Shown: positions 2,644 through 29,469 of the stretch, in pieces | Position numbering within the stretch: the stretch's first letter is position 1 | Layout of the letters: the number at the start of each line of letters is the position of its first letter | From: an uncultured Verrucomicrobia subdivision 3 bacterium | Lineage (GTDB): Bacteria > Verrucomicrobiota > Verrucomicrobiia > Limisphaerales > UBA11358 | Direction: 5' to 3' | DNA length: 43,369 nucleotides | NCBI GenBank assembly: GCA_903944085.1 | Contig: CAJAQO010000063.1 | Location: forward strand, 1-43,369 | Position numbers and translations under genes: made by a program | Notes under the pieces: model-generated | What the model saw: the letters and a program-made list of their open reading frames with translations, nothing else | What the model was told of the DNA's origin: nothing | Database searches by the model: none

Positions 2644-5600
2644 TGAACCGGCTTGGTGTGCGCAAAGAGCTGCTTGACCTCAGCGGTGGTGAAGGCACCT
2701 CGCCGAATGCTGAAGTCCTGCACCTCGCCATGAAAACTGCGCTCGTGTTCCCACGGATCGGGCGTGCCGATGTTGACGTTGGCTTCGGCATCGTCGCTTA
2801 ACTCGACGTCCCGCTTGGCAATCGGATTACCATCCTTGTAAAGCGAAAGCGTTTTGCCATTGTAAGTGGCGGTGAACATTTGCCACCGGCCGACTTCAAA
2901 CGGGGAACGGGTTCGGAGATCGCGATTGGCGGTCCAAAAATGGATGTTACCATCGAACACCGCGAAGTAGCGGCTGGTGCCTTCTTTGGGGCTGTCAGTA
3001 TCTCGCCCAAATCCGCCAATAATCGTGCGGGTTTCCGGAAGCTGGGTCGCTTTGACAAATAGATTCATCGTCCAAGCATCATTCTTCTGGAGCGGTAGTC
3101 CGGCGACCGGAGCTTTGACGCTCTGCGTCGGCAGTTGAGCGGACTTAAGAGAATAAACCAGGTTCTGCGCGTTGAACGGCAGGGAAGTGGCCGCAATGAC
3201 GTTGCCATTGGTGGTCTTGTCTTTGATCCCGCTCAAATTCAGCGTGTAATCAATTCCGGCAGGAATCGCCGCGCTGAAAATCAGGCTGACGTTGCGACCG
3301 TCGGCCGACTGCGTAATTTTGCTGACGGCCAGCGCAGGTTGAACCATATAGTTTTTAACTTCAACCGCCGCCATCGGGTCGAGCGGTTTGGAGAAAGTTA
3401 GATTGAGCGCATTCAGGTTATTTTCGACTAGCGCACTGACGACCGTGGGGGGCGCGAGGTCATGAATTTCAATGACACCTCGGACAATTGATCCGACTTT
3501 TCCGCTTTCATCAATTTGCGCGACCGCCACATTCACAGTTTCTTCGGCCAAAAACGGCTGATCGTAAACCGGCGAACCGGCCGTGGGATCGCTGCCATCA
3601 AGCGTGTAATGCAGATCGCCGGGCCGATGGTAAAGCGGCGGGACCAGCATGATGGCGGTCGTTTGATTGAAACTTTTTCCCGCCTGTGGGATGAGTGGCA
3701 CGCCGCTGGGCTGGTGGTCGGCAAGTGTATCATAAAGCGGCGCCGCCGGCGGCGTGGCACCAGGTTCGCTGGCCACGCTGACGGCGAAAACACGGATTTT
3801 GGAATTGTCCGGCAGCGTCAAACTTTTAGTCCCCGTCGGCAATTCGTAGGTAAGTTCGAATAAGTAGGAATAACTGTAGTAAGCATCACCTTGCGGCGTG
3901 TTATGGTGAGTCGCAAACCAGGCCACCGGAGTGCGCTTGATAAATCCTGGAACTAGGCCCACCGGCGGCTGGTTGGGTTCCAAGTCTATCTTCTGAGTAG
4001 GATTGTCCCAAAGCCGGTTATCCCATTGGCCGATGTAGCCCGTCCAGTTAGGAATGTTAAAGGGCTGCGCGTCCCCGCCAATTTTAATCTGGCTGCTTGT
4101 ATCGCCGTCCGCTGCTACCAGCAAATGCACGCGATTGAAATTTCCAGTTGGCAAATCAAGGCTCTGGCCGTGCGCGGTAAGCGCGTTCTTATCCCCGTCG
4201 GCGACGGAGCCAAGTTGGAAATTTACACCTTCGCGAACAACTTGTTTCGGAAACATCTCGGCCGGATAAGCTCCGCCGCTGGCGTCCATTGCGCCATCAT
4301 CGCGTTTGGCGCGGCTGCTAATAACATCCGTATCATAAGTCAGCGGCACAACTTGACTGGTCACGGCTGCAACCGCCGTCTGTGGCGGAGCCAGTTTGAG
4401 TGCAAAGGCTTTCAAGCTGAAAGACTTCATGTCGAATGTTAGTTGGCCGTTTTGAAGAGTGGCATTGCCGATGGGTGCTTCCTGGCCATTCACCTCGCGT
4501 GCGGCGGTGATGGCTACAGGAAAGCGGAGCGCGAGATTTTTGGCTGGCTTGCCGGTAAGTTCTTTGAAGCGAACAATAACTTCATCGCTGTCTTCCGCTT
4601 TTTTCAAGGTTTCCAACTGAACCTGATCGCTATTGAGTGTCAGCATCGAAAAAGTCCGGTTATTTCCGGAATGCGCGGCTGTTAGAAACGCGCGTAATGG
4701 TTGATTTAGCCGCGCAGCCTGCCAAGGATCACGACCTTCGCTCCAGTCACCTTTGTGGGCGGCGAGGGCGTAGAGGATTTGATGCTTGCCTTGATCTTGC
4801 GAACCTTGATCGGGATAACCTCCGCGCGTGCCGGGCGTGTATAAGAGCGTAAGTCGCAAAGTATGATCGTCCGGCTTGTCCGAACCATATTTGGAATCAC
4901 TCATGATTTCGACCCCGTAGCCGCCGCCGGCATCAGTAAGATCCAGCCATTGTTGCAGTGGCAATTCGAAACGTGTGGGCTTGTCGTTGTCGCGCATTGA
5001 GACGCCGACTTTGTCCGCGAAAGCGGCATTGCTGTTCGCGGCGGTGAAGGTGAAGTCAGCCTTCAAACTGGCTATGGCGGAGCGCCAGTCAATGTTATTG
5101 AAAAATTCCACACGGTCACCACCACTGCCAGCAGCCAGCCGGATTTGTTGGGTAAAGATACTATTTTCGGTCGTGCGCTTGACTTCCAAACTCACGCGAG
5201 CCGGGCCGGATTCCACAATCCGAATCTCCGCCGGGCCGGCGACGAAACCGCGCGCGGGTTTTTGCCGATCTTCCCAATCCATATTCCAAGCGGGCCATTG
5301 GGCAGGATTTTCGGTGTGAAACGAAAGTCGCGCCGGCGCGGAAAGCAGTTCGTGGTTGAGCGATTTGTCGAAGATAGAGGCAATGTCGCCTTGGGCATCA
5401 AGAGAAACTTTGTAGCGGGCGTTTTCGAGCGAGTTGGCGGTGACGACAAGACTGGTCGGCGCCGACGAATTTGACTCCGGTCGCACATCATAAATGGCGT
5501 ATCCGACGGACGGAACTTTTGCGACGAACAGCACCCGAAGCGAATTACCATCGCGTCCAAGAACCTGCGTCGGCACGGGTTGACCTTGCGGATCATAAGC

Positions 5601-20871: not shown

Positions 20872-21582
20872 ATGAATTTCTCCGTCCTCCAATTTCCCGC
20901 GAGCAACTGTGACCAGGACGCCGTCCACGCCGTCCGCCTGTTCGGCCATTCCGCGCGGCTCGTCTGGCACAAGGATGCTTCGCTCGGCGACACCGACTGC
21001 GTCATCGTGCCCGGCGGATTCAGCTACGGCGATTACCTGCGCTGCGGCGCGATCGCGCGGTTCAGCCCCGTGATGCAGGCCGTGAAACAATTCGCCGACA
21101 ACGGCGGTCACGTCCTTGGCATCTGCAACGGCTTTCAAGTCCTCACCGAAGCCGGCCTGCTGCCCGGCGCGCTTATCCGCAATCGTGACCTGCAATTCCA
21201 CTGCGAAAACATTTTCCTCAAGACCGCCACGAACGATTCGCCCTTCACCAGCCAGATTCCGGCGGGCAAAATTCTCCGCGTGCCCATCGCCCACGGCGAA
21301 GGCTGCTATTTTGCCGACGAAGAAACGCTCGCGAAGCTCAAGGCCAACAACCAAATCCTCTGGCAATACTGCGACGCGACCGGAAACCTGACCGACAGCG
21401 CGAATCCCAACGGCGCGCTGCAAAACATCGCCGGCATCTGCAATGAAAAGCGCAACGTGGCCGGCCTGATGCCGCATCCCGAACGCGCCTGCGAACCGCT
21501 GCTCGGCAGCGACGACGGCAAATGGATTTTCGAAAGCATCTTCGCCGCGCTCAAAAACAAAACCGTCGCGGCTGCGGCGTGA
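20872..21582 (+). CDS. purQ: phosphoribosylformylglycinamidine synthase subunit PurQ (glutaminase)
   Basis: This 236-residue class I glutamine amidotransferase supplies ammonia to PurL. The nucleophile cysteine is in [13 protein letters not shown], and the catalytic histidine/glutamate pair is in [10 protein letters not shown]. Oxyanion and fold motifs include [21 protein letters not shown]. The length is normal. The last 67 bp before the final few codons (21504-21570) are repeated exactly at 22103-22169, beyond an inserted DUF4160/DUF2442 pair. The C-terminus here is KTVAAAA; in the copy it is KTVAQAA. Confidence 0.94.
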
Positions 21583-21588
21583 AGGTTT

Positions 21589-21822
21589 ATGCCAACGATT
21601 AAAATTGAACGCTACAAGTTCAGGTTTTACTCGTCGGACGCGGGCGAGCCACCGCACGCGCATGTCATTGACGGCGACAAGGTGGCGAAGATTTGGTTGC
21701 AGCCGGTTGCAACCGAATACAATCGTGGTTACAACCGCGCAGAGTTGAACTATATTTTGAAACTGACGAGAGAAAACCAAGCTCGTCTGCTGGAAAACTG
21801 GAATGAATACTTTAATCGCTAA
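21589..21822 (+). CDS. DUF4160 family protein, putative toxin-antitoxin-like partner
   Basis: This 77-residue protein has the DUF4160 pattern: an N-terminal strand [14 protein letters not shown], the signature EPPHAHV, then KIWLQP and a C-terminal helix [14 protein letters not shown]. It starts 6 bp after the purQ stop and overlaps the next gene by 20 bp, so translation is coupled. DUF4160 and DUF2442 genes are frequent neighbours and are suspected, not proven, to act as toxin-antitoxin-like pairs. A second, diverged pair sits after purL at 27072. Confidence 0.8.
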
Positions 21823-22069
21823 AACAGCCGAGGCGGTCACCGCCGAGAGCGTTCGTTTTGTCGGCGACAAGCTCGTCGTGAAATTGAGCGACTGGCGCGA
21901 ATTGAGCGTGCCCTACAAAAAAATTCCGTGGCTGAAATGGCTCGCCAAAGCCACGCCGAAACAGCGCACCGACTGGTCGCTCGAACCCGGCGGTTACGCG
22001 ATTTACTGGGAGCAACTCGATGACGGCGTGGAAATCTGCCACCTGCTCGGCACGGAAAGTTTGAACTGA
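21803..22069 (+). CDS. DUF2442 family protein
   Basis: This 88-residue protein has the DUF2442 features: a beta-rich N-terminal part (LVVKLSDWRELSVPY) and the segment KATPKQRTDWSLEPGGYAIYWEQLDDGVEICHLL (quoted as joined short motifs: ATPKQRTDW, GGYAIYW, LDDGVEI). It overlaps the 3' end of the DUF4160 gene, and its stop is 1 bp before the start codon of the purQ tail copy. It is the putative partner, perhaps the antitoxin, of the DUF4160 protein. Function is inferred from neighbourhood only. Confidence 0.8.
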   Translation: MNTLIAKTAEAVTAESVRFVGDKLVVKLSDWRELSVPYKKIPWLKWLAKATPKQRTDWSLEPGGYAIYWEQLDDGVEICHLLGTESLN

Positions 22070-22070
22070 A

Positions 22071-22181
22071 ATGATGGCCAATTTTCAATTGCGAGCCGCG
22101 CCCGGCAGCGACGACGGCAAATGGATTTTCGAAAGCATCTTCGCCGCGCTCAAAAACAAAACCGTCGCGCAAGCAGCATAA
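22071..22181 (+). pseudogene. duplicated purQ 3' end, with its own start codon
   Basis: A 36-codon ORF (ATG at 22071, second ATG at 22074) has a reading frame that from about residue 12 is the PurQ C-terminus: [20 protein letters not shown]. Bases 22103-22169 are identical to 21504-21570 of purQ. Homology extends a further ~13 bp upstream with a few changes, and the end differs (QAA-stop against AAA-stop). It follows the DUF2442 stop by 1 bp and precedes hicA by 9 bp. It lacks all catalytic residues, so it cannot be a glutaminase. It may be a displaced gene end left by an insertion, or an expressed micropeptide. Confidence 0.85.
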
Positions 22182-22190
22182 ATTTTTCAC

Positions 22191-22376
22191 ATGAAAATCC
22201 GGGAAATCATCCGGCAGATTGAAGGCGACGGCTGGTTTCATGTGCGCACGCGCGGCAGCCATCGGCAGTATCATCACGCGACGAAGCCCGGCACGGTGAC
22301 GATTGCCGGCCATCCGGGACAGGATTTGCATCCGAAAACATTAAACAGTATCTTGCGGCAGGCAGGACTCAAATGA
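22191..22376 (+). CDS. hicA: HicA-type toxin (mRNA interferase)
   Basis: This 61-residue protein of the YcfA/HicA double-stranded-RNA-binding-like family has the catalytic histidine H24 in TRGSHRQYHH, a conserved glycine pattern (EGDGWFHVR) and the ending HPGQDLHPKTLNSILRQAG. HicA toxins cleave mRNA. The stop overlaps the hicB start (ATGA), the usual order and coupling for hicAB. It begins 9 bp after the purQ tail copy. Confidence 0.93.
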   Translation: MKIREIIRQIEGDGWFHVRTRGSHRQYHHATKPGTVTIAGHPGQDLHPKTLNSILRQAGLK

Positions 22377-22588
22377 CTATGCGCTACACCATCATCATCG
22401 AACACGGGCCGGAAAATTTCAGCGCCTACGCGCCGGATTTTCCCGGCTGCGTCGCAGCGGCGGACACGGAAGTTGAAACTCTCGCGCTGATGAAAGAAGC
22501 GTTAGAAATGCACATTGAAGACATGCGCGAACGCGGCGAACCGATTCCGCAACCGAGCGAAATCCGCGAAGTGGAAGTGGCGGCGTGA
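22373..22588 (+). CDS. hicB: HicB-type antitoxin
   Basis: This 71-residue HicB has the N-terminal partial RNase H-like fold: MRYTIIIEHGPENFSAYAPD, then FPGCVAAADTEVETLALMKEALEMH. The C-terminal end is short (PSEIREVEVAA) and no helix-turn-helix or ribbon-helix-helix follows, so it may bind HicA without a separate DNA-binding domain. It is coupled to hicA by a 4-bp overlap. Confidence 0.9.
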   Translation: MTMRYTIIIEHGPENFSAYAPDFPGCVAAADTEVETLALMKEALEMHIEDMRERGEPIPQPSEIREVEVAA

Positions 22589-24051: not shown

Positions 24052-26412
24052 ATGACCGAACCCGCCATCACCCCAGAGTTGGTTGCCAAACACAACCTCA
24101 CGCCGGAAGAATACGCCCACGCCGTGGAAATCCTCGGCCGCACGCCGAGCTACACCGAGCTTGGCATCTTTTCCGTGATGTGGAGCGAGCATTGCAGCTA
24201 CAAAAACACCAAGCCGCTGCTCAAGACCTTCCCCACCAAGTCGCCCAAAATCCTCGTCGGCGCGGGCGAGGAAAATGCCGGCATCATTGACATCGGCGAC
24301 GGCATCGCCATCGCGTTCAAGATCGAGTCGCACAACCATCCGAGCGCGGTCGAGCCGTTTCAGGGCGCGACCACTGGCGTCGGCGGCATCGTGCGCGACA
24401 TCTTCACGATGGGCGCGCGGCCCGTCTGCGCGGTGAACTCGCTGCGCTTCGGGCCAATCACGGCGAACGGCGAATCTGACCTTTCAAATTCGAAAGCTGA
24501 AATTGCCAACAATCGCCGCCTCTTTGCCGGCGTCGTCAGCGGCATCGCGCATTACGGGAATTGCTTCGGCATCCCGACCGTCGCGGGCGAGGTTTATTTC
24601 GACAAGACCTATCAAGGCAATCCGCTCGTGAACGCGTTCTGCCTCGGCGTCCTGCGCCATGAGCAAATCACGCGCGGCGCGGCCAAGGGCGTGGGCAATC
24701 CCGTGTTTTATGTCGGCCCAGCGACGGGTCGCGATGGTCTCGCGGGCGCGGCGTTTGCGTCGCAGGATTTGACGGAGGAATCCGCCGAGCAACAGCGCGG
24801 CGCGGTGCAGGTCGGCGATCCGTTCATGGAAAAACTCGTGTGCGAAGCGTGCCTCGAATTGCTCGCCACCGGTTGTGTTGCGGGCATGCAGGACATGGGC
24901 GCGGCGGGTTTGACCTGTTCCACCTGCGAAATGGCCGCGCGCGCCGGCACGGGCATCGAGATCGAACTCGACAAAGTTCCGCAACGCGCGCCGAACATGA
25001 GCAGCTACGAGATCATGCTGTCGGAATCGCAGGAGCGCATGCTCATCGTCGTCCACAAAGGCCGCGAAGAGGAAGTGAAACGCATTTTCGACAAGTGGGA
25101 TTTGCCGTGGTCCGAGATCGGCATCATCACCGACACCGGCCACATGAAGGTGCGTCACGGCGGCAAGCTCGTCGTGGACATTCCCGCGAAAAAAATCGCC
25201 GACGAATCGCCCGTGTATCAGCGCGAAGCCGTTGAGCCAGCGTATTTGAAAGACGTCCGAGCCTTCCGGCTGGGCAATATTCCCGATACCCAATCTCCCA
25301 TCTCCGATCTGCTAAAGCTTTTGGCGTGGCCGAGCATCGCGTCGAAGAACTGGGTGTATCGCCAATACGATCATCAAGTGCGCGACGGCTCGGTCGTGTT
25401 GCCCGGTAGCGACGCCGCGGTCATCCGCATCAAGACGGATTCGTTGCCCGTGATGAGCGCGGAACTCGCCGCGAAAGTTGGCGATCCGAAAGTTTCCGAA
25501 AAACTCATCGCCATGACCGTGGATTGCAACGGCGGCTATGTTTATCTCGATCCCTACGAAGGTGCGAAAATCGCCGTGGCCGAAGCGTGCCGCAATCTTG
25601 CCTGCTCCGGCGCTTTGCCGCTCGGCGCGACGGACAATCTCAACATGCCCAGCCCGCTCAAGCCCGAGCTGTTTTGGCAGATCAAGGAATCCGTGCGCGG
25701 TCTGGCCGAGGGTTGCAAAGCCTTCAACGCGCCCGTCACCGGCGGCAATTGCTCGCTCTATAATCAAAGCCCCGCCGGTCCGATTGATCCGACGCCCACG
25801 ATTTCCGTCGTCGGCCTCATCGAAAAGCTGGAGCACGTCACCACACAATGGTTCAAGGACGAGGGCGACGCCATCATCCTGCTCGGCGACGCGGTAGATC
25901 AAGCCGATCCGATTTTCGGTCTCGGCGGCAGCGCGTATCTGCAAGTCATTCACGGCAAGAAGAACGGTTCGCCGCCGCGCTGCGATCTCGAAGTGGCAAA
26001 GACGCTGCACACCACGCTCCTCGGCCTGATCCAATCCGGCCTCGTGAAGAGCGCGCACGATTGCAGCGAAGGCGGCCTCGCCGTCGCGCTCGCGGAAAGC
26101 TGCATCAGCCAGCTCATCGCCCGCGAAACGCCGCGCCTCATCGGTGCGACGATTGATCTGAGCGCATTGAAAGACGTCCGCCTCGATGCACTGATCTTCG
26201 GCGAAACGCAATCGCGCGTCGTCATCAGTTGCAAAGCCCTTGACGCCGTGAAAGTCGTCGAACGCGCCAAACTCATGGGCGTTCCAGCCGTTCAGATCGG
26301 TAAAATCGGCGGCGACAAGCTCACGGTGAAAACCGCCGGCGGCGAATTTTCCGCCCCGCTGACCGAGCTGCACGATGTCTGGTGGAACAGCATCGCCCGC
26401 GCGATGGCGTGA
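24052..26412 (+). CDS. purL: phosphoribosylformylglycinamidine synthase subunit PurL
   Basis: This 786-residue synthetase subunit, of the small type used with separate PurS and PurQ, has [67 protein letters not shown] and [16 protein letters not shown]. It is slightly longer than the ~740 usual for this type. Some of the excess may come from low-complexity insertions near residue 145 and 412. Its last ~114 bp (26299-26412, ending [10 protein letters not shown]) occur again at 26951 and 27580. In both copies the residue before WWN is A, where PurL itself has V. Confidence 0.95.
25285..25312. repeat. four 7-bp units inside purL
   Basis: GATACCC, AATCTCC, CATCTCC and GATCTGC follow each other without gap at 25285-25312, coding in frame for part of [11 protein letters not shown]. 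The unit pattern xATCTCC with an exact 7-bp period matches the style of the intergenic heptamer elements. The segment lies in a surface-type linker before [20 protein letters not shown]. Confidence 0.4.
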
Positions 26413-26457: not shown

Positions 26458-26643
26458 ATGAGCAGTCGAGAATTGGTCATTGACCTCGTCAACAAGCTGC
26501 CGGAGAACGCCTCGCTGGCGGATATTGTCCGTGAGATTGAACTGCTGGCGGGCATCGAGAAAGCGCGCTGGCAGGCGCGGCGCGGCGAAGGCATTCCCGC
26601 CGAGGATGCGCGCCAACTCGTTGACGCATGGGCTGCAAAGTAA
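26458..26643 (+). CDS. antitoxin of a RelE/ParE pair (addiction module component type)
   Basis: This 61-residue protein has the pattern of small antitoxins that precede RelE/ParE toxins: ELVIDLVNKLPENASLADIV, REIELLAGIEKARWQARRGE and a terminal EDARQLVDAW. It overlaps the toxin gene by 16 bp. A paralogue of the same family stands alone at 28931. It begins 45 bp after the purL stop, so it could be co-transcribed with the pur genes. Confidence 0.8.
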   Translation: MSSRELVIDLVNKLPENASLADIVREIELLAGIEKARWQARRGEGIPAEDARQLVDAWAAK

Positions 26644-26930
26644 TCCTCACGCCGCAGTCGCTGGATGATTTGCGCGGAATTGTGGTTTTTATCGCGCAGC
26701 AGAATCCCGCACGCGCAATGTCTTTTGGCAACGAACTCATTGACCACGCGCTGACGCTGGTGGAATTGCCGGAACGCGGCCGGGTGGTGCCGGAAATTTC
26801 CGAACCGGGCGTCCGCGAAATTGTCCACCGCCCGTATCGGATCATCTACGAAATTTTCCCGGAGCAAAACGCCGTTTATGTGCTGCGCTCCTGGCACGGC
26901 GCACGCGGCGAACCGGAAATAAAACCATGA
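26628..26930 (+). CDS. RelE/ParE family toxin
   Basis: This 100-residue type II toxin of the RelE/ParE fold has VILTPQSLDDLRGIVVFIAQ, AMSFGNELIDHALTLVELPE, GRVVPEISEPGVREI, RPYRIIYEIFPEQ and the C-terminal VLRSWHGARGEP. The pattern of RPYRIIYE plus a terminal WHG/R is closer to ParE-type proteins, and the target (gyrase or ribosome-bound mRNA) is not decided by sequence. It overlaps its antitoxin. Its TGA overlaps the ATG of the purL tail copy (ATGA), which couples the toxin to that mini-ORF. Confidence 0.88.
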   Translation: MGCKVILTPQSLDDLRGIVVFIAQQNPARAMSFGNELIDHALTLVELPERGRVVPEISEPGVREIVHRPYRIIYEIFPEQNAVYVLRSWHGARGEPEIKP

Positions 26931-27064
26931 GCCTTCCCCTAATGCAGACCGGCAAAGTCGGCGGCGACCAGCTGACGGTGAAGACCGCCAGCGGCGAATT
27001 CTCCGCCCCGCTCACCGAACTGCACGACGCCTGGTGGAACAGCATCGCCCGCGCGATGGCATGA
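26927..27064 (+). pseudogene. second copy of the purL 3' end, with its own start codon
   Basis: A 45-codon ORF opens with a new nine-residue start (MSLPLMQTG). From 26951 it is the PurL C-terminus, GKVGGDQLTVKTASGEF to [10 protein letters not shown]-stop. It has the same 114-bp length as in purL. Over the last 105 bp I count about 10 differences, seven at third codon positions. The start codon overlaps the toxin stop (ATGA). It has no active-site residues. It was either displaced by insertion of the RelE/ParE pair or is carried as part of a cassette. Confidence 0.88.
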
Positions 27065-27071
27065 GTTTTTT

Positions 27072-27272
27072 ATGGGACGAATCCGGCGCAGTGGTTACAT
27101 CATCACTTGGTTCATTGGCGATCATCAGCCGCGCCATGTCCATGTCGAGACGGAAAAGGGCAAGCTGGTTGGCCGTTTTGATTTGCAGACCCGGCGCGGG
27201 ATGGAAGGTTGGCAGCCGGACAAAAAGCTGTTAAAGTTGATTGCTGATTTGGAAAATGAAGGCCGCCTATGA
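27072..27272 (+). CDS. DUF4160 family protein (second copy type)
   Basis: This 66-residue protein has DUF4160 features: GYIITWFIGDHQPRHVHV with the P-x-H-x-H signature, then KGKLVGRFDLQTRRG and a C-terminal helix KLLKLIADLENE. It is diverged from the copy at 21589, so it was probably acquired independently. It begins 7 bp after the purL tail-copy stop and overlaps the next gene by 4 bp (ATGA). Confidence 0.75.
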   Translation: MGRIRRSGYIITWFIGDHQPRHVHVETEKGKLVGRFDLQTRRGMEGWQPDKKLLKLIADLENEGRL

Positions 27273-27562
27273 AATCACTGACAAACCTTAAAAAGCCGTT
27301 TGGCACCGCCAAGATGGTGCGCATCAAAAGCGTCCGCTATCTCGCGTGGGAAGACGCCTTTGACGTGGAATTCGACGATGGCTTGAGCTTTCTGGAACCG
27401 CACGCCACCATCCGCAAGGCCAACAAAATTGCCGCCAAAGCCGAGCCGGTGGAGATTGTCCTCGAAGCGGAATGTCGCATCGGGTTTGACGTGCGTTACG
27501 ATAACGGGCAAACCGCCGAAGTGTCCTGGGCCTTCATCCGCGAACTGCCGCCGAAGAAATAA
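27269..27562 (+). CDS. small beta-rich partner of DUF4160 (DUF2442-like)
   Basis: This 97-residue protein contains KMVRIKSVRYLAWEDAFDVE and FDDGLSFLEPHATIRKANKI, followed by a strand-rich second half. The first part has the DUF2442-like layout of strands around a DDG turn. The second half is unlike the copy at 21803, so the family call is tentative. It is translationally coupled to DUF4160 (ATGA), and its stop is 2 bp before the ATG of the third purL tail copy. Confidence 0.6.
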   Translation: MKSLTNLKKPFGTAKMVRIKSVRYLAWEDAFDVEFDDGLSFLEPHATIRKANKIAAKAEPVEIVLEAECRIGFDVRYDNGQTAEVSWAFIRELPPKK

Positions 27563-27564
27563 TC

Positions 27565-27694
27565 ATGGCCAAGCAACGGGGCAAAGTCGGCGGCGACAAG
27601 CTGACGGTGAAAACCGCCGGCGAAGAATTCTCCGCCCCGCTCACCGAATTGCACGACGCGTGGTGGAACAGCATCGCCAGAGCGATGGGGGTGA
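27565..27694 (+). pseudogene. third copy of the purL 3' end, stop lost by a 1-bp change
   Basis: The ATG at 27565 and five new residues (MAKQR) lead into the PurL C-terminus from 27580 ([17 protein letters not shown] to WWNSIARAM). At the end, GCGATGGGGGTGA replaces GCGATGGCGTGA. The extra base puts the TGA at 27692-27694 out of frame, so the frame runs on to about 27807 with unrelated residues. It shares the DAWWN residue with copy two and differs there from purL. It follows the second DUF4160 pair by 2 bp. Confidence 0.85.
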
Positions 27695-27712
27695 CATCAA
27701 TCATCCAAACGT

Positions 27713-28693
27713 TTATTGCTTTTGAAAAATTGAAGGGATTCCTGGCGGTGCAAAAATCAAAGCTATGCTGTAATCTTTACGTTTTGATTTTGAAGAATAG
27801 ACAGTAAATTTTGTTGCCAGAAAAGGCTCCGTAACATTGGTGGAAATCATAAAAGTTTCTGCTGTAAAAAAGTCTTTGGATGCTATGTTTTTAGCACTTA
27901 CGGTTGTCCAAGTATTGAATGTTGAAGAATTATCCCTAGCTGACACAGCATTTTCATCCCAGTCATGGGATTTTATTAAGTTGGTTTTACTCAGTGGGGC
28001 GCTAAAAGTTATTGTTGCATTCTCCGCTGTCAGATCTCCGATATTTTGTATTTCAACAAACACTGAACGATTTGTTAAAATCAGAACACCATTTCCTGAA
28101 ATCGGCAATTTATTCAAGAATATTGAAAACTCAGGCATGATTGTCGCTTGGGCTACCGAATTTGAAAAGTCATTCACAATGGATGCAAATTGATTGAGAT
28201 TTGTTGGAGCATTTGCCGCTATGTTTGTGTAAATGTTGAACAAATTTCCTGGCATGGATTCAATAACTGCTGTGCGTTGTAGCGCATTGTCACGCTCACT
28301 TGTCAGTTTTAGAATTTCAGTATCCTTGTTCCGCAGCCTCTCGTTGTAATCCATTTTCAAGTCAGCGGTAGCATTGGCATGTTCAATTATATTCTGGCTG
28401 TATTCAGATTTAAGGTTTTTCAATTCCGTTGTGGTGATGTTCAATTGACCGGCTAAAAATGAATTTGTGCCTTGATATGTGGAGCGAGTGGATTCCAGTT
28501 TTTTATCGTCAAAATGAGACGTGACAAAATAACAACCCAATACGCTAAACAAAATTGCGCAGATCAAGACGAGGGGAAATTTGGCCACATGATGCAACTC
28601 ATTGGTCAAATGCGGTTTCAATTGTTTCCAATCCCAGAGCAAATCCCACATGAGTGTTAACCACTGCCTAAATGTGCGAGGTTTATCTAGCAT
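27713..28693 (-). CDS. unknown single-pass membrane protein with coiled coil
   Basis: I do not recognise this 326-residue protein. Residues ~39-58 are one transmembrane helix (FPLVLICAILFSVLGCYFV). Residues ~65-140 are a charged coiled-coil stretch (NITTTELKNLKSEYSQNI, DYNERLRNKDTEILKLTSER). The rest is a Thr/Ser/Asn-rich beta-type region. The base composition is clearly A+T-richer than in flanking genes, which suggests recent transfer. It is the only minus-strand gene in the accessory block and is convergent with the third purL tail copy. It could belong to a defence or phage-derived module, but nothing in it says so. Confidence 0.6.
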   Translation of the reverse strand: MLDKPRTFRQWLTLMWDLLWDWKQLKPHLTNELHHVAKFPLVLICAILFSVLGCYFVTSHFDDKKLESTRSTYQGTNSFLAGQLNITTTELKNLKSEYSQNIIEHANATADLKMDYNERLRNKDTEILKLTSERDNALQRTAVIESMPGNLFNIYTNIAANAPTNLNQFASIVNDFSNSVAQATIMPEFSIFLNKLPISGNGVLILTNRSVFVEIQNIGDLTAENATITFSAPLSKTNLIKSHDWDENAVSARDNSSTFNTWTTVSAKNIASKDFFTAETFMISTNVTEPFLATKFTVYSSKSKRKDYSIALIFAPPGIPSIFQKQ

Positions 28694-28713: not shown

Positions 28714-28875
28714 TTGAGTAAGCCCCCGAAATCGTCAAGCAAAGCCAACGCGGTCTTTTGCGACGGCCACGTCGAATCGCCGACGCTGCCATTTCTGTTT
28801 GCCGACACCAGCGACGCGGCCTTGGCGCGCTGGAACCGCGACCATCTGCCGCACCGCGAAAAATTGTCGCCGTAA
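28714..28875 (+). pseudogene. 3' remnant of a prepilin-type (H-X9-DG family) gene
   Basis: An open frame without a start codon ends at TAA 28873-28875. It translates to SKANAVFCDGHVESPTL followed by a segment ending in WNRDHLPHREKLSP. ANxxFCDGHVE and the WNRDH.PHR ending are characteristic of the C-terminus of H-X9-DG prepilin-type proteins, which are abundant in Verrucomicrobia and Planctomycetes. The histidine of the H-X9-DG motif and everything upstream are missing. It is a third example in this region of a gene tail next to toxin-antitoxin material. Confidence 0.7.
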
Positions 28876-28930: not shown

Positions 28931-29122
28931 ATGAGCGACAAACAATTGGTTTTGAATTCAATCGGGCGGTTGCCCGATGATGCCAGTCTGGATGTCATCG
29001 CCGAACAAGTGGAATTTCTGGCGGCCGTCCGCAAAGGCCTTGACCAGATTGAGCGCGGCCAGACCATCCCGCATGATGAAGTCAAACGGCAGCTTGCGTC
29101 AAGCCATCCGTCGGCAGGCTAG
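28931..29122 (+). CDS. orphan antitoxin-like protein
   Basis: This 63-residue protein is of the same family as the antitoxin at 26458 (VLNSIGRLPDDASLDVIAEQ, VEFLAAVRKGLDQIERGQTI, HDEVKRQL). The usual C-terminal W is replaced by SSHPSAG, and no RelE/ParE toxin follows. The end of the gene and the toxin were probably deleted or overwritten by the repeat region that follows. It may still be expressed. Confidence 0.7.
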   Translation: MSDKQLVLNSIGRLPDDASLDVIAEQVEFLAAVRKGLDQIERGQTIPHDEVKRQLASSHPSAG

Positions 29123-29244
29123 GCGGGCACATCCCGGCTCATGGAAAGTGTCCCGTTTTTGGGCGCGACTTCAGGGTGGCGCGAGTGAGATTGAATAAAT
29201 GGCTGTGGATAAGACTATTGTAAATTTGATTTGGAAGAGAAAAA

Positions 29245-29469
29245 TTGGGGAACGTGGTCGGGAAATTGGGGAAAACCATCGGGAAAATGGGGGCAGCCTC
29301 GGAAAAATTGGGGAAAGTCGTTGGGAAAATGGGGGAAACGGTTTTTACTTTGGGGAACGCCGTCGGGAAAATGGGGGCAGTGGTCGGGAAATTGGGGAAC
29401 ATGACCCGCGAATTGGGGGCGATGCTTCGGCAATGGGGAAAATCGCCCGGAAAAAGGGGACCGGACTGA
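29245..29469 (+). repeat. ten 21-bp tandem units encoding a glycine-rich heptapeptide repeat
   Basis: From 29245 to 29454, ten 21-bp units follow without gap, with the DNA pattern [T/A]TGGGGxxxxxxxTCGGGAAA. In the frame beginning with TTG at 29245 they code [L/M]-G-x-x-[V/I]-G-K, then RGPD and a stop, 74 residues in total. GGAAGAG lies just upstream of the TTG as a possible ribosome binding site. The G-x-x-x-G spacing repeated every seven residues suggests a glycine-zipper-like helix. Two other frames on each strand are also open through the repeat, so coding is unproven. The flanks 29123-29244 and 29470-29630 hold nothing else I can support. Confidence 0.55.

Follow-up and report, generated by a model that had tools for sequence, protein, structure and literature searches.

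Integron arrays consist of small cassettes, many of them toxin-antitoxin (TA) pairs, which are added stepwise beside a fixed anchor. Integrative elements can also occupy gene ends, as do the prophages that restore the end of icd in Escherichia coli. TA modules move often, and a question of interest is how solitary chromosomal TA pairs enter a genome without a mobile element. Some restriction-modification systems are described as inserting with long and variable target duplications (PMC3031569), on the order of 100 bp (PMC3874152, citing Furuta 2010 and Nobusato 2000). Among the TA systems, DUF4160/DUF2442 is listed in a table as the pair dhiTA of Dickeya dadantii (PMC8198452). A Thermus pair with these domains is described as stabilising plasmids; no transformants were obtained with a plasmid lacking the second gene, transformants were obtained with one lacking the first, and that source deduces that the first protein is toxic and the second neutralising (PMC12724237).

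The window (the whole 43,369-nt stretch analysed here, from the genome designated G000) carries a DUF4160/DUF2442 pair directly behind purQ, between the end of that gene and a second copy of the same end (Table 1). The pair has the gene order and both domains of the type II system known as dhiTA or Persistence Enhancing Module (PMC8198452, PMC12724237), and because of its homology to the pairs of D. dadantii and Thermus it can be called a putative TA system. The passages of those two papers on the pair treat TA function and make no mention of gene-end repeats, whereas the pair in the window is flanked by such repeats. PADLOC returned no match for six proteins, and a PDB search with the DUF2442 protein found nothing convincing (best E 0.07).

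The nearest known kind of event is the insertion of restriction-modification genes with long target duplication. As described for those systems, an addictive gene pair without a linked transposase lies here between long direct target repeats (~100 bp), and a related genome with an empty site was found. In contrast to the described restriction-modification insertions, the identified cargo consists of type II TA pairs and other small genes in similar cassettes, the repeated stretch is in many cases the end of a gene, readable in frame from a start, and the genomes are Verrucomicrobiota; the units also stack and occur in related genomes, some with tails that match their host. Small cassettes, many TA pairs and stepwise addition at an anchor are shared with integron arrays, but here the repeat differs with each host gene, the anchor is an ordinary housekeeping gene, and no integrase was recognised when the ORFs of the purQ cassettes with tails were inspected by eye. 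As with icd-type elements, the old gene end is displaced to the far side of the insert; unlike those elements, the units measure ~0.4-0.9 kb between repeats and sit behind many different host genes. A search of titles and abstract openings in one literature collection found no TA cassettes flanked by gene ends; an earlier description may exist elsewhere.

Table 1. Features of the purQ and purL loci (positions in the window).
Feature	Position	Strand	Pfam support
purQ (host gene; PurQ amidotransferase subunit)	20872..21582	+	GATase_5 PF13507, 6.8e-41
Native purQ end (proximal tail copy, ends AAAA-stop)	21501..21582	+	
DUF4160 gene, dhiT-like toxin by homology	21589..21822	+	PF13711, 2e-15
DUF2442 gene, dhiA-like antitoxin by homology	21803..22069	+	PF10387, 4.4e-12
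Leftover ORF: 11-codon leader (22071-22103) and distal purQ tail (22104-22181, QAA-stop)	22071..22181	+	
hicA-hicB, 3' of distal purQ tail	22191..22588	+	PF07927, PF15919
purL (second host gene; end 26293-26412 duplicated twice)	24052..26412	+	
Antitoxin-like ORF (26458-26643; no Pfam match) and ParE toxin (26628-26930)	26458..26930	+	ParE PF05016, 4.5e-17
Leftover ORF with purL tail copy 1 (ATGA overlap with ParE stop)	26927..27064	+	
DUF4160-like (27072-27272) and DUF2442-like (27269-27562) genes	27072..27562	+	PF13711, 6.6e-5 (first gene)
Leftover ORF with purL tail copy 2 (tail part 27580-27688; native stop lost)	27565..27807	+	

The purQ repeat reported in the earlier note is exact to the base: positions 21504-21570 and 22103-22169 are identical at 67/67 positions, within a wider repeat of 81 columns at 96% (or 88 nt at 90% by another alignment). 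The compact organisation of the insert was likewise borne out. DUF4160 begins 6 nt after purQ and overlaps DUF2442 by 20 nt, and the DUF2442 stop (TGA, 22067-22069) is followed by a single A and then by the ATG at 22071, which is in frame with the tail copy as native purQ encodes it (GGC at 22104, 33 nt on); the frame closes with TAA at 22179-22181. The resulting ORF joins the leader MMANFQLRAAP to the 25 final purQ codons without a shift of frame. The last 12 nt, including the stop, partly differ between the two tails, giving AAAA in the native gene and QAA in the distal copy. The same unit with its tail is also present in G041, G015 and G013 and partly in G012, and is therefore not an assembly artefact of a single contig.

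The purL locus has the order purL, ParE-type TA, tail copy 1, DUF4160/DUF2442-like pair, tail copy 2; the second gene of the latter pair has no Pfam match and is DUF2442-like by position and by eye. Thus, the earlier proposal that one type of cassette sits behind both purQ and purL stands with respect to the arrangement, which recurs behind several genes with that gene's own end each time, and not with respect to the cargo, as one of the two purL units is a ParE-type TA rather than a DUF pair. Further downstream, an orphan C-terminal fragment (28714-28875) resembles the end of what we take, from an H-X9-DG motif, to be a pilin-like protein, and a lone antitoxin-like ORF (28931-29122) is by eye similar to the one behind purL; together they may be the remains of another tail-flanked unit. 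A 21-bp tandem repeat (AAATTGGGGAA-type) at 29242-29441 can be read as an ORF on both strands.

The frequency of flanking repeats was assessed in 49 genomes of the same genus. These relatives are metagenome genomes, many labelled Verrucomicrobia subdivision 3, Limisphaerales or Pedosphaera (some otherwise), with lakes, bog, palsa and groundwater among the sources according to their records. TA loci were taken from family searches, using those matches for which the locus was obtained, and a direct repeat of at least 40 nt with at least 78% identity was scored. Such repeats flank 29 of the 81 sampled TA loci, as compared with 11/400 random windows (Fisher 2e-16) and 4/400 windows at gene boundaries; the other 52 TA loci have no repeat by these criteria. 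The positive loci are distributed over DUF4160 (12/29), HicA (10/30) and HigB (7/22), and the fraction is still 25/72, counted by hand, when purQ loci are excluded. Repeat lengths are 41-174 nt at the 29 positive loci and 58-120 nt at purQ and purL. Additionally, 30 repeat-flanked intervals were counted in 1.40 Mb of bulk sequence, a set to which the purQ-purL loci of G021 and G048 belong. At least eight of these hold a TA-type gene by Pfam (ParE-like, PIN, DUF5615/DUF433, DUF4160, HicA twice, BrnT; another HicA lies at the G021 purQ site), and others hold a PD-(D/E)XK gene, a transposase-like ORF (Y1_Tnp, below cut-off), genes that are paralogous or rich in repeats, or nothing that could be recognised. 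Across the phylum, 8/30 DUF4160 loci are repeat-flanked (a count made without control windows). The pattern therefore extends beyond the genus, yet it is not universal. Chance duplication, already considered unlikely in the earlier note, is excluded, and the arrangement recurs behind several genes, each time with that gene's own end.

The cargo found between gene-end repeats includes DUF4160/DUF2442, HicAB, HigBA, ParE and BrnT types. A PurQ query matched in 46/49 genomes, several of the matches being fragments only or another amidotransferase, and gave additional tail-only matches behind several purQ genes. Tail copies were examined for purQ in G000, G021, G012, G013, G041, G019, G002 (two) and G015, and for purL in G000 (two), G021, G013, G029 and G048, with a fragment in G031. 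Ten further events have as hosts, by Pfam, an EPSP/MurA-type enzyme, an aldehyde dehydrogenase, a 2-hydroxyacid dehydrogenase, a short-chain dehydrogenase, two class I tRNA synthetases (Glu/Gln type), a TPR protein, an Lrp/AsnC regulator, an ETF-QO-like protein and a tRNA nucleotidyltransferase-like protein. For instance, the aldehyde dehydrogenase gene of G007 is followed by three tails (100, 92 and 81%), and its homologue in G033 by one tail and then a partly similar flank. Similarly, the 2-hydroxyacid dehydrogenase has extra tails in G021 (two), G015 (two), G041 and G033, and none at that gene in the stretches examined of G030, G002, G029, G028, G026 and G045. Elsewhere in G029 (L155, contig C22), a DUF4160/DUF2442 pair lies between two tails of this dehydrogenase in a stretch with no dehydrogenase body, and the native gene with one tail is found at another place in that genome (L374); this DUF unit may have moved together with its tails.

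At four loci (L042, L079, L113 and L047), the repeats are gene starts or intergenic DNA rather than gene ends. In G030 (L042), the duplicated segment is the purL start instead of the purQ end (oriented positions 2132-2246 and 3120-3235; 93%, 116 nt), and its copies enclose a pair that by eye is nucleotidyltransferase/HEPN-like, and L079 and L113 have gene-start repeats of the same kind. In G048 (L047; oriented positions 1804-1907 and 2302-2415), an intergenic repeat of 104-114 nt surrounds a PD-(D/E)XK (GxxExxY-like) gene behind purQ. The purQ-purL interval (L034-L071) is a hot spot for the insertion of unrelated genes, by eye DUF1016-like nuclease, HNH, ATPase, REP-type transposase-like and adenine methylase-like. 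PurL itself has in-frame inserts of ~15-70 residues in many relatives (L034-L060), located at two shared positions (after residues 138 and 706 in the numbering of the window PurL, which has no inserts); several of them contain GGEGRGEG- or TLSPSGGEG-like motifs, and they look like in-frame repeat elements.

Which of two tail copies is the older was examined for 15 purQ and purL leftovers by aligning the last 60 nt of the leftover and 400 nt downstream to the native ends and downstream regions of other genomes, and a match was recorded if it extended 50 nt or more beyond the stop. For five of the 15, a relative was found in which tail and flank are contiguous at the native gene end, and for the other ten no empty-site homologue was found; a G015 match and one to G039 that covered flank only were left out of this count. 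The leftover and flank of the window purQ match native purQ and its downstream region in G012 (93%, 460 columns), G021 (92%), G007 (91%) and G038 (81%, almost only flank), and in all four genomes hicA lies directly behind native purQ. On the question of which purQ tail is ancestral, raised in the earlier note, it is thus the distal QAA tail with its spacer and HicA that matches these native ends; G007 shares the QAA end but not the proximal AAAA end. For purL, tail copy 1 of G000 and its flank match the native end and flank of G013 (86%) and G048 (83%), and the leftover of G048 in turn matches those of G047 (85%, 250 columns) and G011 (80%, 148 columns), which gives a series of no cassette (G047/G011), one (G048/G013) and two (G000). 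As judged from this series, the newer cassette is the one that adjoins the gene. The remaining polarised leftovers are one in G002, against G019 (80%), and, weakly, that of G041 against G026 (78%, 130 columns). In all cases where polarity could be assigned from such alignments (5/15 purQ/purL copies), the original gene end is the copy that now lies distally, displaced by the insert. Empty purQ-purL junctions, with the two genes 11-13 nt apart and no insert, are present at L045, L046, L050, L056, L058 and L060. A local BLAST of 13 non-pur events among the collected loci gave no tail-plus-flank match; in a search of the genus, the host at L182 had a partial partner in G033, and for the hosts at L222 and L156 the tail was present in many genomes with no partner for the flank.

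The DUF units behind purQ in G000, G041, G015, G013 and G012 (truncated) align throughout, leader included, and their junction was therefore probably made once. The association of purQ tail copies with the DUF pair proposed in the earlier note holds in one direction: at purQ loci whose ORFs were read, a DUF pair directly behind purQ has a tail in 4/4 (G000, G041, G015, G013), and in G012, where HicAB intervenes and only the end of DUF4160 is left (a DUF4160 search gave no match there), the purQ tail is present. Tail copies without the pair also occur, after HigBA or part thereof (G019, G021, G002, L265, L280, L306), and the arrangement is therefore not specific to the DUF pair. The tails of these HigBA units begin 104-118 nt before the stop, and 5/6 have, by eye, a similar leader. 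Two of them are in distant genomes, the PurQ proteins of L280 and L306 being only 75-78% identical to that of the window; L306 has the order purQ, HigB, HigA-like ORF, leftover ORF, purL, with the TGA of the leftover inside an ATGA of purL. Both leftovers are closest to the purQ of their own host (L280, 0.96 against 0.82 for the best of 78 others; L306, 0.86 against 0.79). Overall, the own native end is best or tied best for 4 of 13 leftovers (tied: L239, L260); one to three other native ends are closer than the own for L250, L265 (HigBA) and L237, and for the other six, including that of the window, 9-23 of the 78 others are closer. An earlier rank test placed the own native 3rd to 24th for the eight usable of nine leftovers. 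From this mixture of best matches, tails thus appear to have been exchanged both with the own host and with other genomes. Additionally, HigB identity exceeds PurQ identity in 7/10 genome pairs (for L306-L297, 0.89 against 0.76) and is lower in the three within-genus pairs, and horizontal transfer of HigBA is therefore suggested rather than proven.

These comparisons do not support the earlier reading of the perfect purQ repeat as the mark of a younger event, as the DUF unit is common to five genomes with strongly diverged leaders. The tail identity in G000 is therefore more likely due to recombination among similar purQ tails than to the time at which the cassette inserted. A rise in identity towards the gene end was seen in one host (0.82 to 0.91), was uneven in the aldehyde dehydrogenase and was absent in purQ, and the correlation of purQ body with tail does not mark the proximal end as foreign.

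Leftover tails differ from native ends mainly by synonymous changes. The pN/pS of copies against their own native ends is 0.14 for purQ (9 pairs), 0.16 for purL (6) and 0.16 for others (12), as compared with 0.08 and 0.16 between native ends and, between copies, 0.07 for the purQ DUF unit and 0.21 for the HigBA unit. In the five DUF-unit ORFs, the leader (ten codons after the ATG) has a pN/pS of 1.48 at unchanged length, against 0.07 for the tail. Neutral decay after local duplication would not give these values; tails that were recently native or converted would. The reading frame was tallied from 35 rows, eight of which (L043 purQ, L048 minus, L161, L166, L173, L174, L197, L113) were dropped because the host ORF was not credible or a gene start was duplicated; the 27 usable rows were collapsed by junction and host into 18 families (L036/L044 purL by junction only). 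An upstream ATG with no intervening stop is found in the native frame in 13/18 families, against 0/18 and 6/18 in the other two frames (8 if any member counts); in this post hoc hand tally, in which the stop of the cassette itself closes frame +1 in most cases, the binomial probability is 3e-7 or 9e-6, and 9e-4 against one third. Families open in frame and without an ATG are L158, L207 and L229, and L092 (HicAB) has a GTG start. Some tails are decayed: that of L092 (632-696) is shut by a stop, that of G019 ends early, and purL copy 2 has lost its native stop.

Repeats on the order of 100 bp and the existence of empty sites would be accounted for if each cassette had entered its genome separately, copying ~100 bp of target by long target duplication only, with the tails diverging in place by mutation, and duplications of this order are described for restriction-modification genes (PMC3874152). 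This course of events is nevertheless unlikely: a neutral leftover should gather amino-acid changes, whereas pN/pS is 0.14-0.16 and the leader of the same ORF is at 1.48, one junction is common to several genomes, and tails are often closer to the native ends of other genomes than to their own. Constraint at the amino-acid level, together with in-frame starts, would also be seen if the tail ORF were a selected third gene of the cassette whose peptide acts, for example, as a decoy or regulator of the host protein. That is decidedly improbable, however, as the same role would be needed for purQ, purL, the EPSP/MurA-type enzyme, the aldehyde dehydrogenase, the TPR protein, the tRNA synthetases and the Lrp/AsnC regulator, and some copies are decayed or without the native stop. 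Moreover, the distant leftovers of L280 and L306 follow their host's own sequence, and constraint on the tail as an independent peptide is disfavoured by these host-matched tails.

The start of many cassettes lies only a few bases from the stop codon, and each distal copy that could be polarised is the displaced end, as could be expected if a site-specific recombinase acting in trans placed cassettes at gene ends with the tail as attachment site. Such a recombinase is highly improbable in view of the repeats, whose sequence is wholly different between hosts, and of the gene starts and intergenic DNA that serve too; none was noticed by eye among the ORFs of the purQ cassettes that carry a tail. 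Transposase-like ORFs do occur in the purQ-purL interval of G040 and G029, there without a purQ tail. Ku-dependent fill-in of a staggered break (NHEJ) was also considered as a source of the duplication, and Ku (PF02735) was found in 1/49 genomes, several of which are incomplete; classical end joining is therefore unlikely.

It is likely, instead, that TA cassettes inserted with long target duplication and that homologous recombination inside a single gene afterwards spread and stacked them. This reading draws on the duplicated ends, the displaced old end where polarised, the stacking, the shared junctions, the host-matched tails in two distant genomes and the conserved frame, all of them visible in the compared sequences; the transfer itself we infer. 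In this reading, each unit is a TA cassette, here dhiTA-like, that inserted directly behind a host gene, with ~40-170 bp of the gene end on both sides. In the compared genomes the host gene is whole upstream, and further cassettes are stacked beside it. Since a unit has pieces of the same gene on either side, a donor fragment would carry two homology arms, the gene body or tail and the leftover tail, and the cassette could recombine into any relative that has the gene, whatever its downstream DNA. A crossover inside the tail would swap the leftover for the recipient's own gene end. The leftover may be kept as an in-frame ORF starting at the last stop of the cassette because it would preserve the translational coupling to the next gene that existed before insertion: ribosomes would reach the native stop and re-initiate at the next gene. 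The unit would be retained through addiction. ComEC, which was found in 48/49 genomes, permits transformation, but is weak evidence since the profile also matches in E. coli. In a more tentative form, which falls slightly short of an even chance, the units may constitute an integrase-free, integron-like system in which gene 3' ends serve as recombination sites; a cassette would carry or capture a gene-end repeat, spread between species by homologous recombination within that gene and push the old end and older cassettes downstream, with the displaced end as a translated bridge to the next gene.

Traces of insertion survive in many genomes, and sites that are empty, hold one cassette or hold a stack of them occur alongside one another. 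The arrangement offers a simple mechanism for the entry of solitary TA pairs, because with both homology arms in one conserved gene, ordinary recombination could suffice and the host gene would stay unbroken. It also predicts short ORFs that are gene-end fragments and would otherwise be annotated as genes or pseudogenes. Overall, the results suggest that selfish TA genes spread between genomes with the ends of host genes as landing sites.
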